Source of the DNA: an uncultured Clostridia bacterium
GTDB lineage: Bacteria; Bacillota; Clostridia; Lachnospirales; CAG-274
Direction: 5' to 3'
NCBI GenBank assembly: GCA_947624015.1
Contig: CANQIA010000008.1
Coordinates: forward strand, 1 to 64,000
Length of the DNA: 64,000 nt
Shown: one piece after another, positions 58,063 through 64,000 of the stretch
Layout of the letters: each line of letters begins with the position of its first letter
How positions within the stretch are numbered: position 1 is the stretch's first letter
Notes under the pieces: model-generated
What the model was told of the DNA's origin: nothing
Databases searched by the model: none
What the model saw: only the letters and a program-made list of their open reading frames with translations
Translations under genes and position numbers: made by a program

Positions 58063-58186
58063 CTTGACCTTCTTTTGATATTTATTTGCGGTTGGCAGAG
58101 GCAAATAATTGTTTTTTTGCGCAGTATAAACGCCGGATAACTGAAAGAAATGCAAAAAAGCGTATCGATTTTATCGACACGATAAA

Positions 58187-58216
58187 GGCTCGATCCGAAA
58201 AGATCGAGCCTTTTTA
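58187..58216. terminator. Terminator between mreB and the peptide gene
   Basis: GGCTCGATC pairs with GATCGAGCC across a six-base loop, T5 on the plus strand. On the minus strand it would end the M60-peptide transcript. Confidence 0.75.
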
Positions 58217-58243
58217 TTAATAGCTTTGATATAAAGCCCTTTT

Positions 58244-58399
58244 TTATTTGCCGCCAAAAACACTGCCATAGCTTTCCGTCATAGGCTCGCCGTTGCTGCC
58301 CCCGTCAATAAGCTTATTTGTAGCAGTACCGCTTGCGGTAATAATATTTTCAGCTATAAACAGTGAAACTGTCATTTCAGGCTTAACATAATTCTTCAT
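58244..58399 (-). CDS. Small 51-residue peptide downstream of the M60 giant
   Basis: A 51-residue frame, MKNYVKPEMTVSLFIAENII and on through TASGTATNKL to a glycine/serine-rich end (SYGSVFGGK), starts 12 bases after the M60 gene. AGGAGG lies immediately behind the M60 stop codon, seven bases before this ATG, so translation is coupled. Similar short peptides with a KPE start and an ENII(T)ASG segment recur in Clostridia in my memory, but without known function. The C-terminal half is flexible and hydrophilic. It could be a secreted or processed peptide, a regulator, or a membrane-linked small protein. Confidence 0.75.
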   Translation of the reverse strand: MKNYVKPEMTVSLFIAENIITASGTATNKLIDGGSNGEPMTESYGSVFGGK

Positions 58400-58411
58400 T
58401 ATACCGCCTCC

Positions 58412-61400
58412 TTACTGTAATGTACCGAGACTGAAGGTCTTGGTATCAGAAAGAACCTTTGTTTTACCATCTAATTTAACAACATAAGGCGTTACTTCTA
58501 TCTCGGCATCGTCAGGAACATCCGTAATTGTAAATGCATATTCGTATTCCTTGCCAAAGTCTCCCGGCATAACTGCGGAACCGGCAATAGAACCAAATAC
58601 CTTATTATTATCTGTGCCTGCCACAGCTATCGGCTTAGTAACTTCCTTAGCGCCTGACTTAAATATAAAGCCTGCTTCGGCATAATCAAGACTGCTTATG
58701 CCTGCTATAAAGTTAATGCTGTTGCCGTTTCTTTCAGCCTTTACATCTGATTTATCAACGTCGGTCTCGGTTGAGCCGTCGATCTCTGCGCCTGCTCTAA
58801 GGCTTGTGATACCATTTATCTCTTGCCAATTTACCAGTGTAAAGTCATCGTGAAGACTTATCGTCTGTCCCTGTTCAACGATAACAAGTATATCTCTTGC
58901 GTCGCCCTCTGCCTCAAGCTTAAGAGTTCCTACTACAATATTGCCTTGATCCAGAAGATCGCTGTCGGCTACAACATAAATATTGAGCTTGCCGTTTGCA
59001 TAGCGATATTCCTTAAGGAGCGCTCTTTCTTCAACAACATTTGACCACTCAAGAGTAGCTTTGGCGCCAAGATCTTCAATGTTGAACTCAGTCTGGAATG
59101 CAATTGTGTTAATGGCTTCGTCCTCCAGCTTAAGCTCCATTTCAGCCTCTCTGCCGTTTTCGCTTCTGTGGAATGCAAAACCATAGTCATATTCATCCTC
59201 TGCGGGAAGACCGCCTTCTGTGCCTCCGTTATCTTCCGTACCTGCCATATAGTCTGAGCTTTCGCTGCCTGAAGACACAGATGCGGAATAGTTTACGGGA
59301 GCATATTCCTCTGAAGCACCGCCCTCTGAAAATGCTGCAAGATTTTCGGATGAACCCTCTAACGGGTCAGCCTTTATCTCAATAGACGGAAGCTGGTCAA
59401 ATGCGGGAACATTTACATTAAGAGTATTACTTACCATTCTCTCGCCTTCAAGAGTAAGGGCATTGTCAACTCTGTAAAGCTCGGCGCTTATAACGGAAGG
59501 AATATTTTTGTAATTATCATCATCCGGTTCTATCCAATAGATCCATGTACCGTCGGATACATCGCCCAGCTCGCCGTTCTTCGGAGGAGTGGCAAGAATG
59601 ATCTGATAACCGTCAACTATGGTCTTTTCGTTTCTCTTTTCTCCTTCAAGGAGCTTAACTACATTGTATGCAGGGCTGCCCTTGTACTGACCCGTAAATA
59701 TTACTGAGCCGGCAGGAATGGTGTAAGCCTTAGGATCTGACAGATCATAAGTATAAGGCTTTTCAAGCTTGCCTATACCTAAAGGTACAAGCTCTACATT
59801 ATCGCTTGTGGGACCCAATATATTAACGCTGCTTACGCTTGCCTCGGTAGCTTCATAAACTACCTTAACGAAGCTTGCATTGTATATATACATATATCCC
59901 GGTTCCTCAGGATTGTTGAAATAGAATGTCTGCTCGCCATTGCCCTTGTAGTCTATATCCTTAGCCTTAGTCCAGTTAGAGTTATCTTCACTTACATATA
60001 CTGCAAATTTGGAAGCGGCGCCATTATACTTGATAGCTGTCACCTGCTCCTCCTTGCCAAGGTTTATTACGAACTCGGCAGGAGCTTTTTCGGCAGTTTC
60101 ATCAAGAGTACCGTCTTCCTTCTTGGGAGCAGGCACTGCGCCTGTATATCCTTCCCCATTACCCTGACCGATAATAGAAGGAATAGATGAAATATAAGTA
60201 TCTTCGCAATATTCACTGTTGCCGTCTGCCTTTACCTCCGTATCGGCATCAGACTTCATATTGGTCTCGATAGACCAGTTTTCTCTGCCGATGGTACCGT
60301 CATGCTTTACCTTAACGGGAGCAATATCAACGGCAGCGGTAGTATTGAGAAGTTTGTCATAGCCTATTATCTTATATTCATAGACCATATTGTTGCCTGT
60401 TGTGATCACATCAGTGTAGGATGTCTCGCTAGCGGGAACAAACGCTACGGGAACGTCGTTTCTGATTATCTCATAGCCAAGCATAGCGTCTCCGCCATTA
60501 TTTGTAAGCTCAAACTTGATCTCATTTGAAGAAACTACATTTTCGGGATGCTCGGTCACCATTTCTGCAGTTATGCTTGTGCCTGAAGGCATACCGTTTC
60601 CGCCTTTAAGCTTATAATCTCTTGCGTCATCGTTAAAGTACTGTATCTTCTTATCTTCTGTCGGGAACTGTGAAGCATATGCCTGAGTATCCTTGTCATA
60701 TGCAAAGCCCCATGCCTCAAAGAACGGTATAAGATTCTTCTTGGCAGCCGCTGAAGCAAGTCTTATAAGATTGTCGCTTGTACTCTTGGTCATTACAAGA
60801 GGTATTGCGGATTCAGCATCGACTCCCTGTGGTATCGGAGCGCTTGCGGGATCTCTGCTGTATGCATCCATACGAGCATAGAAGTTATTTGCAAGCTGCT
60901 GGTCAAGGCTGTCGAACATCTTATAATCATAATAATTGTCAAAGTAGGAATGAAGCTGCCAGTACATACCCAAGGTCATACCCTTAGGCACAGCGCCTAT
61001 GCTGCCTCTTGTTACCACTTTATAAACCTCGTTGAAGTTTATTCTGTCGATTGACTGAGTGGCAAGAAGTGAGAAGAAGTTATTTGTAACCTCTGCCACC
61101 ACATAATTTCTGTTATTTATAACGTGACCCATCTCATGAGCAATTCCCCAGCCAGAAAGCTGACCTGATTCCTTTTTGCCCATATCATCTGCAACAATAG
61201 GAGCAAATGAAACAAGTTCGGGAACACTGTCGTACTCGATACCTATATGCTTGCCGCTTGCATACATAAATGCTCCCGCAAACATAGCGTGATAACGAAT
61301 ATTAAGTCTTTGCATAGGATATCTGTTAGGGCTTTCCGTAGACAGATTTCCATCCTTGTCGTAATTTTCATTCTTGTTAAGACCCTTGTACTGATAGAAC

Positions 61401-64000
61401 AAGTCTATCTGCTGTTCCATACCCTCAATGGCAGTTTCCAGCTTAGAAGCGCCGCCGTTACCGATACCTTCCAATATCTTAGAGGCGGGAACAGAGTACA
61501 TCATATTGTTCATAACTATTTCGGTCAGATTCGCAACACAGTTTCTTTCATCATAGGACTTTGAAGCCGTATGCTTTTCGCTGTGTATGCTCTGAAGTTT
61601 ATCCACATGAGCTTTAAGCTCTGAAACATATTCTTCAACAGCGGAGCTTCTCTCCTGACCTGTCTTGTTGGCAACGTTGAGTACAGGTATCTTTGTACCT
61701 CCGCTTACTCTGAGGGAATACCTGCGGTTGTTTACACCTGTCCACTGAACGTAAAGAGAACCGCCGTTCTCACGATCTGCGTATGAAGCCATCTGAGGAA
61801 CCTTGATCACATTACGTCCTACCTTAAGAGTTGTTATCTCCTTTGCCCAGTTAAATGAAGAATCATTGTGCATCTGGGTGGCAACAAGCTTAAGACCTGT
61901 ATTAACGCCTCTTGCATCTGTGGCGGAGCCTAAGTAAATAACAAGCTCTGTACCTGATTCTGCCGCAACGCCTATGGGCTGATAGTCCGTAAGAGGCATC
62001 GCAAAGTCATCATGACCGTCGTACTTGGCTGATACGGTAGTATCAACGTCTATTATATCGTTAAGACCCGAAGTATTAAGAAGCTGCTCTGCATACTCCA
62101 CCTCAAGAAGGAGATTGTCATGTTCCGGATAAAGCTCGCCGCTTTCCTCATCTATTACTTCAAGCTCTTTCTTAAAATCATTTATAGTGTTTATCGTTAC
62201 GTTATCCTTAAGAGAGATATGCATATCGTCTGCATACATATCGTTGATCCTTGTGGCAAGATCTTCATATTCATAAAATCTCATTTCGGCTATTGTTACC
62301 ATTCTGCCTCCCCAAGTCTCAAGACAGAGCTGGAAAGTATCGGAATAAATGGGAGCGTCTGCAATAAGAGTATAGAATGTGTTGTTGTCCTTATCGGTCT
62401 TCTTTGAAAGACTGCCTCTTATCTTCTGCCATTCGCCCTTATCATCCTTGTATCTTATAGCTCCTGCGGCATAGCTTGAGGGCTGGCTGCCGCTTGAAGT
62501 AAATCTGATAGTGTCGATAGTATATTTCTGATCAAGGGTAATTATGGGATTTGCAAAAAAGCCGTAAGTACTTCCCGTATCCCAATCGGCAACTGCCGTA
62601 TATGTATCCTGATTATTATCTACGGGAGCGTTTGTATCGCCTACAAGAGTACATCTGCTGTCAGCAGTGCTGTATTCTACGCTCTTTATATGAGTCATAA
62701 GCTGACCTCTGCCGTTAGACTTGTTTATGACCTTGCGCTGAGGCAGCGTAACATCGTTTGACGCCACAGGCGTTGCCTTGAGAAGATCATAGGATGAGCC
62801 TGCGCCATAGCTGTTATGACCTATTACGTAGATCTCGTATTCCACATCTGGCTTAAGATTCAGTATTGTATAACTTGTAGCGGCAATATTGTCAACTACC
62901 GTATATTCGCCTGCGCCGACCTCTCTGTAATGAACGCTGTACCACTGACTGTGCATAGTAGCCTTCCAGCTTACCAAAACAGATTCGATCTTAGCCTCTG
63001 CCTTGGCATTTTCTGTCTTGGGAGGCTTAGCGCCCATTGAATCCATTTCAATAGTCTCGGCTGCTGACCACTGGCTCTTCCAGTCTCCGTTTACGGAACG
63101 AACACGGAAGGTATAAAGAACATACTGCTTAAGATCGGAACCGTTAAGGGATCCAACCTTAATCTTTGTATCATTTGTAGGTATTATCTGCTGGCTTCCG
63201 CCTTGGCTTACGCTGACTTCGTATCCTGTAATGCCCGTCTGCTTTGTCCAGCCGAATTCAAACTTGGGATAAAGACCTGCTTCAACCTGCTTTATAGAGT
63301 CCTTTGTTATTTCAGGGATATTGAGCTCGGGTTCAGGGATCCTATCCTCCATATTGTTTACAAACTCTACCTCTGCTATATCCACAAGCTTTGTGCTTGA
63401 GCCTGTAACCTTAATGGTAACTTTCTTTATTGCGATCTGAGAACCGATATTTACAACTACGGTACCGTCGCTTTCTACTGTCGCAATGCTGTCGGGAGAA
63501 GCAAAGAGTTCTGCAAATATAGGCTTTATTATAGGGCTTGCAGATTCATCCTTTATAGGTATTTCAAAATCCTTTATCTTGACTTCCCCTGTTGCAGGGT
63601 CTTTTATCTCCTGACCGTTTTCGTCAAGCTCAGCTCCCTGCACAAGTATCGTACCTGCGGTTATACGGTTTTCTGAGCCTGCAGGAGGCTTTATAACTAT
63701 ACCTGCCGCCTGCTTGGACTCTGCAGGTGCGTCATCATTTATATTAAGCGCTAACTCTACGGGATTCTTTTCGGAAATATCTGCCTCCGCATCTGCAGGG
63801 GCAAGCTGAACGGAACTTCCTTGGCTCTGTATCAGATCATCGATACTTCCTTCGCCTATTATCTTTGTACCCTCCATTGCTTCCGCCTTAATATTTTCTG
63901 CGGAGATTATGCTGAGTGTAGGAGCGGTAACAACTTCGCCCTTGTTAAGGGTAACATAGGCAAGATCCGCAATATTTACAGACTGATCGCCGTTAAGGTC
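58412..64000 (-). CDS. Giant dockerin/FN3/discoidin M60-like metallopeptidase, N-terminus off the window
   Basis: The frame is open to the right edge and holds 1862 residues. Before the ATG at 63877, DLNGDQSVNIADLAYV is a dockerin calcium repeat. Counting from that ATG: two FN3 domains (about 195-375), a discoidin-like domain (about 400-550), a spacer, the M60 gluzincin domain with HEMGH at 914-918 and Glu929, FN3 and a second discoidin-like region (about 1110-1340), and a cohesin-like beta domain (about 1600-1720). M60 enzymes cut mucin-type glycoproteins. The dockerin implies docking onto a scaffold. Confidence 0.88.
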   Translation of the reverse strand, partial: DLNGDQSVNIADLAYVTLNKGEVVTAPTLSIISAENIKAEAMEGTKIIGEGSIDDLIQSQGSSVQLAPADAEADISEKNPVELALNINDDAPAESKQAAGIVIKPPAGSENRITAGTILVQGAELDENGQEIKDPATGEVKIKDFEIPIKDESASPIIKPIFAELFASPDSIATVESDGTVVVNIGSQIAIKKVTIKVTGSSTKLVDIAEVEFVNNMEDRIPEPELNIPEITKDSIKQVEAGLYPKFEFGWTKQTGITGYEVSVSQGGSQQIIPTNDTKIKVGSLNGSDLKQYVLYTFRVRSVNGDWKSQWSAAETIEMDSMGAKPPKTENAKAEAKIESVLVSWKATMHSQWYSVHYREVGAGEYTVVDNIAATSYTILNLKPDVEYEIYVIGHNSYGAGSSYDLLKATPVASNDVTLPQRKVINKSNGRGQLMTHIKSVEYSTADSRCTLVGDTNAPVDNNQDTYTAVADWDTGSTYGFFANPIITLDQKYTIDTIRFTSSGSQPSSYAAGAIRYKDDKGEWQKIRGSLSKKTDKDNNTFYTLIADAPIYSDTFQLCLETWGGRMVTIAEMRFYEYEDLATRINDMYADDMHISLKDNVTINTINDFKKELEVIDEESGELYPEHDNLLLEVEYAEQLLNTSGLNDIIDVDTTVSAKYDGHDDFAMPLTDYQPIGVAAESGTELVIYLGSATDARGVNTGLKLVATQMHNDSSFNWAKEITTLKVGRNVIKVPQMASYADRENGGSLYVQWTGVNNRRYSLRVSGGTKIPVLNVANKTGQERSSAVEEYVSELKAHVDKLQSIHSEKHTASKSYDERNCVANLTEIVMNNMMYSVPASKILEGIGNGGASKLETAIEGMEQQIDLFYQYKGLNKNENYDKDGNLSTESPNRYPMQRLNIRYHAMFAGAFMYASGKHIGIEYDSVPELVSFAPIVADDMGKKESGQLSGWGIAHEMGHVINNRNYVVAEVTNNFFSLLATQSIDRINFNEVYKVVTRGSIGAVPKGMTLGMYWQLHSYFDNYYDYKMFDSLDQQLANNFYARMDAYSRDPASAPIPQGVDAESAIPLVMTKSTSDNLIRLASAAAKKNLIPFFEAWGFAYDKDTQAYASQFPTEDKKIQYFNDDARDYKLKGGNGMPSGTSITAEMVTEHPENVVSSNEIKFELTNNGGDAMLGYEIIRNDVPVAFVPASETSYTDVITTGNNMVYEYKIIGYDKLLNTTAAVDIAPVKVKHDGTIGRENWSIETNMKSDADTEVKADGNSEYCEDTYISSIPSIIGQGNGEGYTGAVPAPKKEDGTLDETAEKAPAEFVINLGKEEQVTAIKYNGAASKFAVYVSEDNSNWTKAKDIDYKGNGEQTFYFNNPEEPGYMYIYNASFVKVVYEATEASVSSVNILGPTSDNVELVPLGIGKLEKPYTYDLSDPKAYTIPAGSVIFTGQYKGSPAYNVVKLLEGEKRNEKTIVDGYQIILATPPKNGELGDVSDGTWIYWIEPDDDNYKNIPSVISAELYRVDNALTLEGERMVSNTLNVNVPAFDQLPSIEIKADPLEGSSENLAAFSEGGASEEYAPVNYSASVSSGSESSDYMAGTEDNGGTEGGLPAEDEYDYGFAFHRSENGREAEMELKLEDEAINTIAFQTEFNIEDLGAKATLEWSNVVEERALLKEYRYANGKLNIYVVADSDLLDQGNIVVGTLKLEAEGDARDILVIVEQGQTISLHDDFTLVNWQEINGITSLRAGAEIDGSTETDVDKSDVKAERNGNSINFIAGISSLDYAEAGFIFKSGAKEVTKPIAVAGTDNNKVFGSIAGSAVMPGDFGKEYEYAFTITDVPDDAEIEVTPYVVKLDGKTKVLSDTKTFSLGTLQ

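Follow-up and report, generated by a model that had tools for sequence, protein, structure and literature searches.

The 51-codon open reading frame directly behind the gene of a secreted Peptidase_M60 protein, in the 64,000-nucleotide stretch of Clostridia DNA analysed here (the window), is a real protein-coding gene under purifying selection. Very probably, it encodes a RiPP-type precursor, which would be co-translated with the secreted M60 enzyme and modified in trans by a central trio composed of an HprK-like kinase, a stand-alone RRE and a SpI-like peptidase. The features of the locus are collected in Table 1.

Table 1. Features of the peptide gene and its surroundings in the window.
Feature	Position	Strand	Remark
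Peptide gene, 51 aa: MKNYVKPEMTVSLFIAENIITASGTATNKLIDGGSNGEPMTESYGSVFGGK	58244..58399	minus	ATG at 58399
Shine-Dalgarno sequence AGGAGG	58407..58412	minus	overlaps the TAA of the partner gene; 7 nt before the ATG
Stop codon TAA of the M60 protein gene	58412-58414	minus	
Secreted Peptidase_M60 protein with fn3 and F5/8-type C domains	58412..64000	minus	start beyond the window, at contig position 64579
YVKP (YxxP), residues 4-7, predicted RRE-binding motif	58379..58390	minus	role predicted from PMC13381572
Predicted leader, residues 1-21	58337..58399	minus	cleavage near T21/A22 predicted by analogy with LppA
Ser23 codon, predicted phosphorylation site	58331..58333	minus	from the family alignment and LPP analogy
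Predicted core, residues 22-51	58247..58336	minus	predicted
Terminator-like hairpin closing the M60-peptide unit	58161..58181	minus	

Positions 58400-58414 comprise the stop codon of the M60 gene, the AGGAGG and the spacer, and the distance from the Shine-Dalgarno sequence to the ATG is ideal. The first-pass annotation had described a 51-residue peptide with a strong AGGAGG behind the peptidase stop codon and had proposed that its translation is coupled to that of the surface M60 peptidase. Both the frame (58244-58399) and the AGGAGG overlapping the TAA are as described, and the layout upholds the coupling. Its dockerin label for the upstream protein has to be dropped. The full-length partner has 2055 aa, as the gene extends past the window end, and its Pfam matches are Peptidase_M60, fn3, F5/8-type C and PEGA, with no dockerin up to E=1 for the part inside the window and up to E=0.001 for the full length. 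The M60 protein ends in a beta-rich domain, encoded at 58415-58750. The 12-nt gap puts the peptide in frame with its partner (TAA GGA GGC GGT ATA ATG, 58399-58414), and read-through of the stop would produce a fusion. We rejected such a fusion with the M60 protein because the gaps at other loci range from -4 to 21 nt and are mostly out of frame. The intergenic hairpin region at 58136-58234, between an MreB/Mbl-like gene and the M60-peptide operon, is matched by about 35 other short stretches of 25-110 nt scattered over the genome and seems to be a dispersed terminator-like or repeat element.

We judged the frame to be more than a chance ORF because the same genome holds copies behind other genes: a 65% identical peptide behind an 871-aa pectate lyase, and further copies behind a 1445-aa pectinesterase/GDSL protein and an 858-aa secreted protein. 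Altogether we identified 43 peptides of 41-52 aa in five genomes of the genus. Genomes of the genus have 6-11 each and those of the family up to 18, overall about six to twenty. For 15 pairs of relatives, mean pN of the peptide is 0.16 and mean pS 0.49, and the differences at codon positions 1, 2 and 3 stand at 129:89:275, which contradicts the lack of codon-position bias that the first-pass annotation had named as a refutation. The near-invariant parts of the peptides are a tyrosine and a proline spaced as YxxP and a serine 19 residues past the tyrosine. Among 90 aligned family members, Tyr or Phe occupies the tyrosine place in all 90 and the proline is present in 97%; Ser is found at Y+19 in 88% and somewhere from Y+18 to Y+20 in 86/90. 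No credible model for the peptides was matched in Pfam and NCBIfam. A wide search of the phylum with the full-length peptide model returned matches in the peptide's own genome only, and distant homologues needed a model of the leader alone.

Regarding the neighbouring genes, a Sec signal peptide, called by our own simple hydrophobicity rule, was present in 34 of the 35 assessable upstream neighbours in the genus versus 10/56 genes of the window (p=9e-15). In other genera 16/19 upstream neighbours carry a signal peptide, and in other families the neighbours are likewise secreted where the gene is complete. The short homologues that the first-pass annotation had proposed to look for thus exist, nearly all of them next to secreted-protein genes, M60 genes included. 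The partners overall also include pectate lyases, pectinesterases, LRR proteins, flavodoxin/DUF362 proteins and others; those of other genera and families comprise M60, pectinesterase, BspA-type LRR and flavodoxin/DUF362 proteins. The gaps between partner and peptide are mostly 12-21 nt. One subtype, ending in YTKGRLNF, precedes the gene of a secreted protein by about 15 nt instead of following it.

Since YxxP is the motif bound by the stand-alone RRE domains of lasso and linear polyphosphorylated peptide (LPP) pathways (PMC13381572), we searched for the PqqD RRE family. The window's own genome has a trio operon on contig C26 (6514-7945), in which the RRE gene sits between the genes of the HprK-like kinase and the SpI-like peptidase; the kinase adjoins the RRE in 19/19 RRE loci examined. 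The RRE matches PqqD (PF05402) with E=9e-20, and its matches in PDB are TbiB1, PbaB1 and LppB; those to calmodulins were judged spurious. Its residues L34, N35, Y62 and D72 are invariant in 15 relatives and correspond to L32, N33, Y60 and D70 of LppB. By pairwise scores, the RRE fits TbiB1 and PbaB1 better than LppB, and by sequence it is no closer to LppB than to lasso RREs. The kinase has an invariant P-loop GxGKSTH and no significant PDB match by sequence. The peptidase resembles signal peptidase I models below the cut-off (1.3e-5), and its Ser33, His72 and Asp88 are invariant in 13 relatives. Likeness to the SynChlorMet (ScmC/ScmD) and HPr-rel-A models of NCBIfam stayed below the cut-offs for both the kinase and the RRE: the kinase matches ScmC (2.5e-9) and HprK_rel_A below their curated cut-offs, and the RRE matches ScmD (2e-7) and PqqD_rel_X far below theirs. 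A second PqqD-like frame (G000:C3:61983-62147, locus L162) lies outside the trio, with no matching kinase or peptidase nearby.

The strong RRE match tracks the presence and absence of the peptide in 48 genomes of the family, with exceptions found mainly among incomplete genomes. In the family genomes at least 85% complete, the peptide (leader-only model) and the kinase are both present in 27 and both absent in 13, with one genome discordant in each direction (p=7e-9, a value that treats the genomes as independent although they are related and so overstates their independence). The peptidase is distributed across the family in about the same way as the kinase. The absences of trio and peptide are spread over several genera (g3, g4, part of g6, g7 and g10). 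Among Clostridia of other families, the peptide occurs in 15/16 kinase-positive versus 0/16 kinase-negative genomes, the latter count leaving aside one match that falls within a frame of 1058 codons.

Physical linkage was found outside the window's family. In all eight of a set of distant Clostridia with one peptide each, the peptide lies 189-1539 nt from the kinase, and several of these single-copy linked peptides sit directly behind a repeat-rich protein. Two more kinase-positive genomes with one match each have the peptide and the best kinase match on different contigs (G679: peptide on C8, kinase on C16; G551: peptide on C388, kinase on C282). These two are of the dispersed kind and stand outside the set of eight; when they are added, 8/10 single-copy genomes are linked, which is still beyond chance. 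A chance calculation for the eight was made once they had been picked and serves as an illustration. A public Clostridiales contig (L052), found by the peptide search alone, holds two peptides, the kinase, RREs and the peptidase within 5.4 kb. Within the window's family, neither the window's own genome nor any other genome that was read has a peptide beside the trio, and therefore the link to the trio there rests on co-occurrence. We also observed a YxxP peptide behind a secreted protein in a Prevotella MAG (L055, 5995-6180) and another in a Herbinix MAG (L054, 63-350), where kinase, RRE and peptidase are all matched within 4 kb. These two hint that the arrangement reaches further.

The best comparison is offered by the LPP RiPP pathway published by Popov et al. 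in May 2026 (PMC13381572). Its core enzymes are an HprK-like kinase, a stand-alone RRE and a SpI-like peptidase, clustered with an MsbA-like exporter. The RRE LppB grips the leader at its Tyr and Pro, the kinase LppK adds phosphate to a Ser that lies three residues into the core, and the leader is cut off by LppS, aided by LppB (PMC13381572). The systems described here share with it the kinase, the RRE with its leader-contact residues, the Ser/His/Asp peptidase, an exporter in some genomes, the YxxP leader and a conserved Ser just past the leader. However, the LPP leader reads YxxPxVLxHQxIxFETxxS, whereas the peptides here have YxxPx[IML] and the conserved T..S but lack HQ and FET, and their conserved Ser stands at Y+19 instead of Y+18. 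LPP clusters also hold an NTP-transferase, and none was recognised when the genes around the trio were read at five loci (L152, L153, L155, L159 and L163). The enzyme set would, judged from sequence, work like that of the LPP pathway, and given the partial leader match and no NTP-transferase seen, we make no claim of strict LPP membership. The precursors also differ in placement. LPP precursors number one to three and lie inside the cluster near capsule genes, whereas in the window's family several are scattered over a genome and coupled to genes for secreted proteins; the distant Clostridia, with the precursor inside the trio locus, resemble LPP in this respect. Dispersed multi-copy precursors, each coupled to a secreted-protein gene, are new with respect to the published LPPs. 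The main text of PMC13381572 does not mention Clostridia, secreted proteins or surface proteins, and we found no earlier account of such precursors in the open-licence, non-preprint papers searched.

In the mechanism we propose, translation of the peptide would be coupled to that of the upstream secreted M60 surface enzyme. The RRE would recognise the leader by its YxxP motif (residues 4-7) and hand the peptide over to the kinase, which would phosphorylate Ser23, the predicted site, and to the peptidase, which would cut off the leader near T21/A22. A single set of enzymes would handle every precursor in the genome, and the mature phosphopeptide would probably function at the cell surface, either together with the partner protein or in step with it. 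The invariance of the RRE contact residues, the kinase P-loop and the Ser/His/Asp of the peptidase leads us to assign residues 1-21 to the leader, about 22-51 to the core and the phosphate to Ser23; binding, phosphorylation, cleavage, export and the final role are predicted. The earlier suggestion of a processed peptide agrees with the RiPP-precursor reading, with the cleavage itself being predicted.

The modified peptide could alternatively never be exported and report the expression of the secreted protein inside the cell, as a cytoplasmic regulator. This would fit a peptide that has no signal sequence and trio loci that mostly have no adjacent exporter, including those of the window's genus, where none adjoins the trio. 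It is unlikely in view of the MsbA-like ABC exporter within the trio locus of two family genomes (L159 and L163), as in published LPP clusters. As some genomes have this exporter and the partners are secreted, we favour action outside the cell, together with the partner, over an inside reporter.

The first-pass annotation had also suggested an assembly factor. In such a role, the peptide would stay unmodified, act as a chaperone and bind the C-terminal domain of the partner before export. Between the M60 and pectate lyase copies, the DNA coding for the C-terminal domain and the peptide is indeed conserved as a single block, and a C-terminal domain of the M60 type is shared by 37/85 peptide-associated partners versus 1/255 other genes, while the catalytic domains differ. 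However, the same type of peptide stands beside varied partners, and those with unrelated C-termini have the same leader; such a role would leave the conserved YxxP leader and Ser, and the co-occurrence with kinase, RRE and peptidase, without explanation. AlphaFold2 predicted no docking of the peptide on the M60 C-terminal domain (peptide pLDDT about 25-30), which is weak evidence given the shallow alignment; the peptide alone gave no fold (pLDDT 60, pTM 0.18). We therefore regard the assembly factor as quite improbable.

Still less credible is a lasso peptide precursor. YxxP leaders and PqqD-type RREs are common to lasso systems, and the paeninodin type in particular has a [Y/W]xxP leader, a stand-alone RRE and an HprK-like kinase (PMC13381572). 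But the family of the lasso leader peptidase (B2, PF13471) was matched in 0/5 genomes of the genus, a macrolactam cyclase was not seen among the genes that were read at trio loci, and across the family the peptides lack the combination of a Gly opening the core and an acidic residue at one fixed position of the ring. Hardly any credence can be given to a translated tail ORF of irrelevant sequence, protecting long secreted-protein mRNAs or aiding ribosome termination, which would suit the strong Shine-Dalgarno sequence and the place between stop codon and terminator but is contradicted by pN/pS, by the co-occurrence of the peptides with the trio and by the subtype that precedes its partner.

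RiPP precursors are usually thought to be clustered with their enzymes, and those described here are scattered. As they are joined to secreted-protein genes away from the trio, mining based on clusters would miss them. The biological role of LPPs was called unknown by the authors of the pathway (PMC13381572), and a first lead on the role of LPP-like peptides comes from their association with surface enzymes (mucin-type M60, pectin enzymes, LRR proteins). As a tentative extension, which we consider possible but somewhat doubtful, many surface proteins across the genomes of these Clostridia may each be co-translated with their own peptide, and one trio may turn these into exported phosphopeptides that join, anchor or report on their partners.
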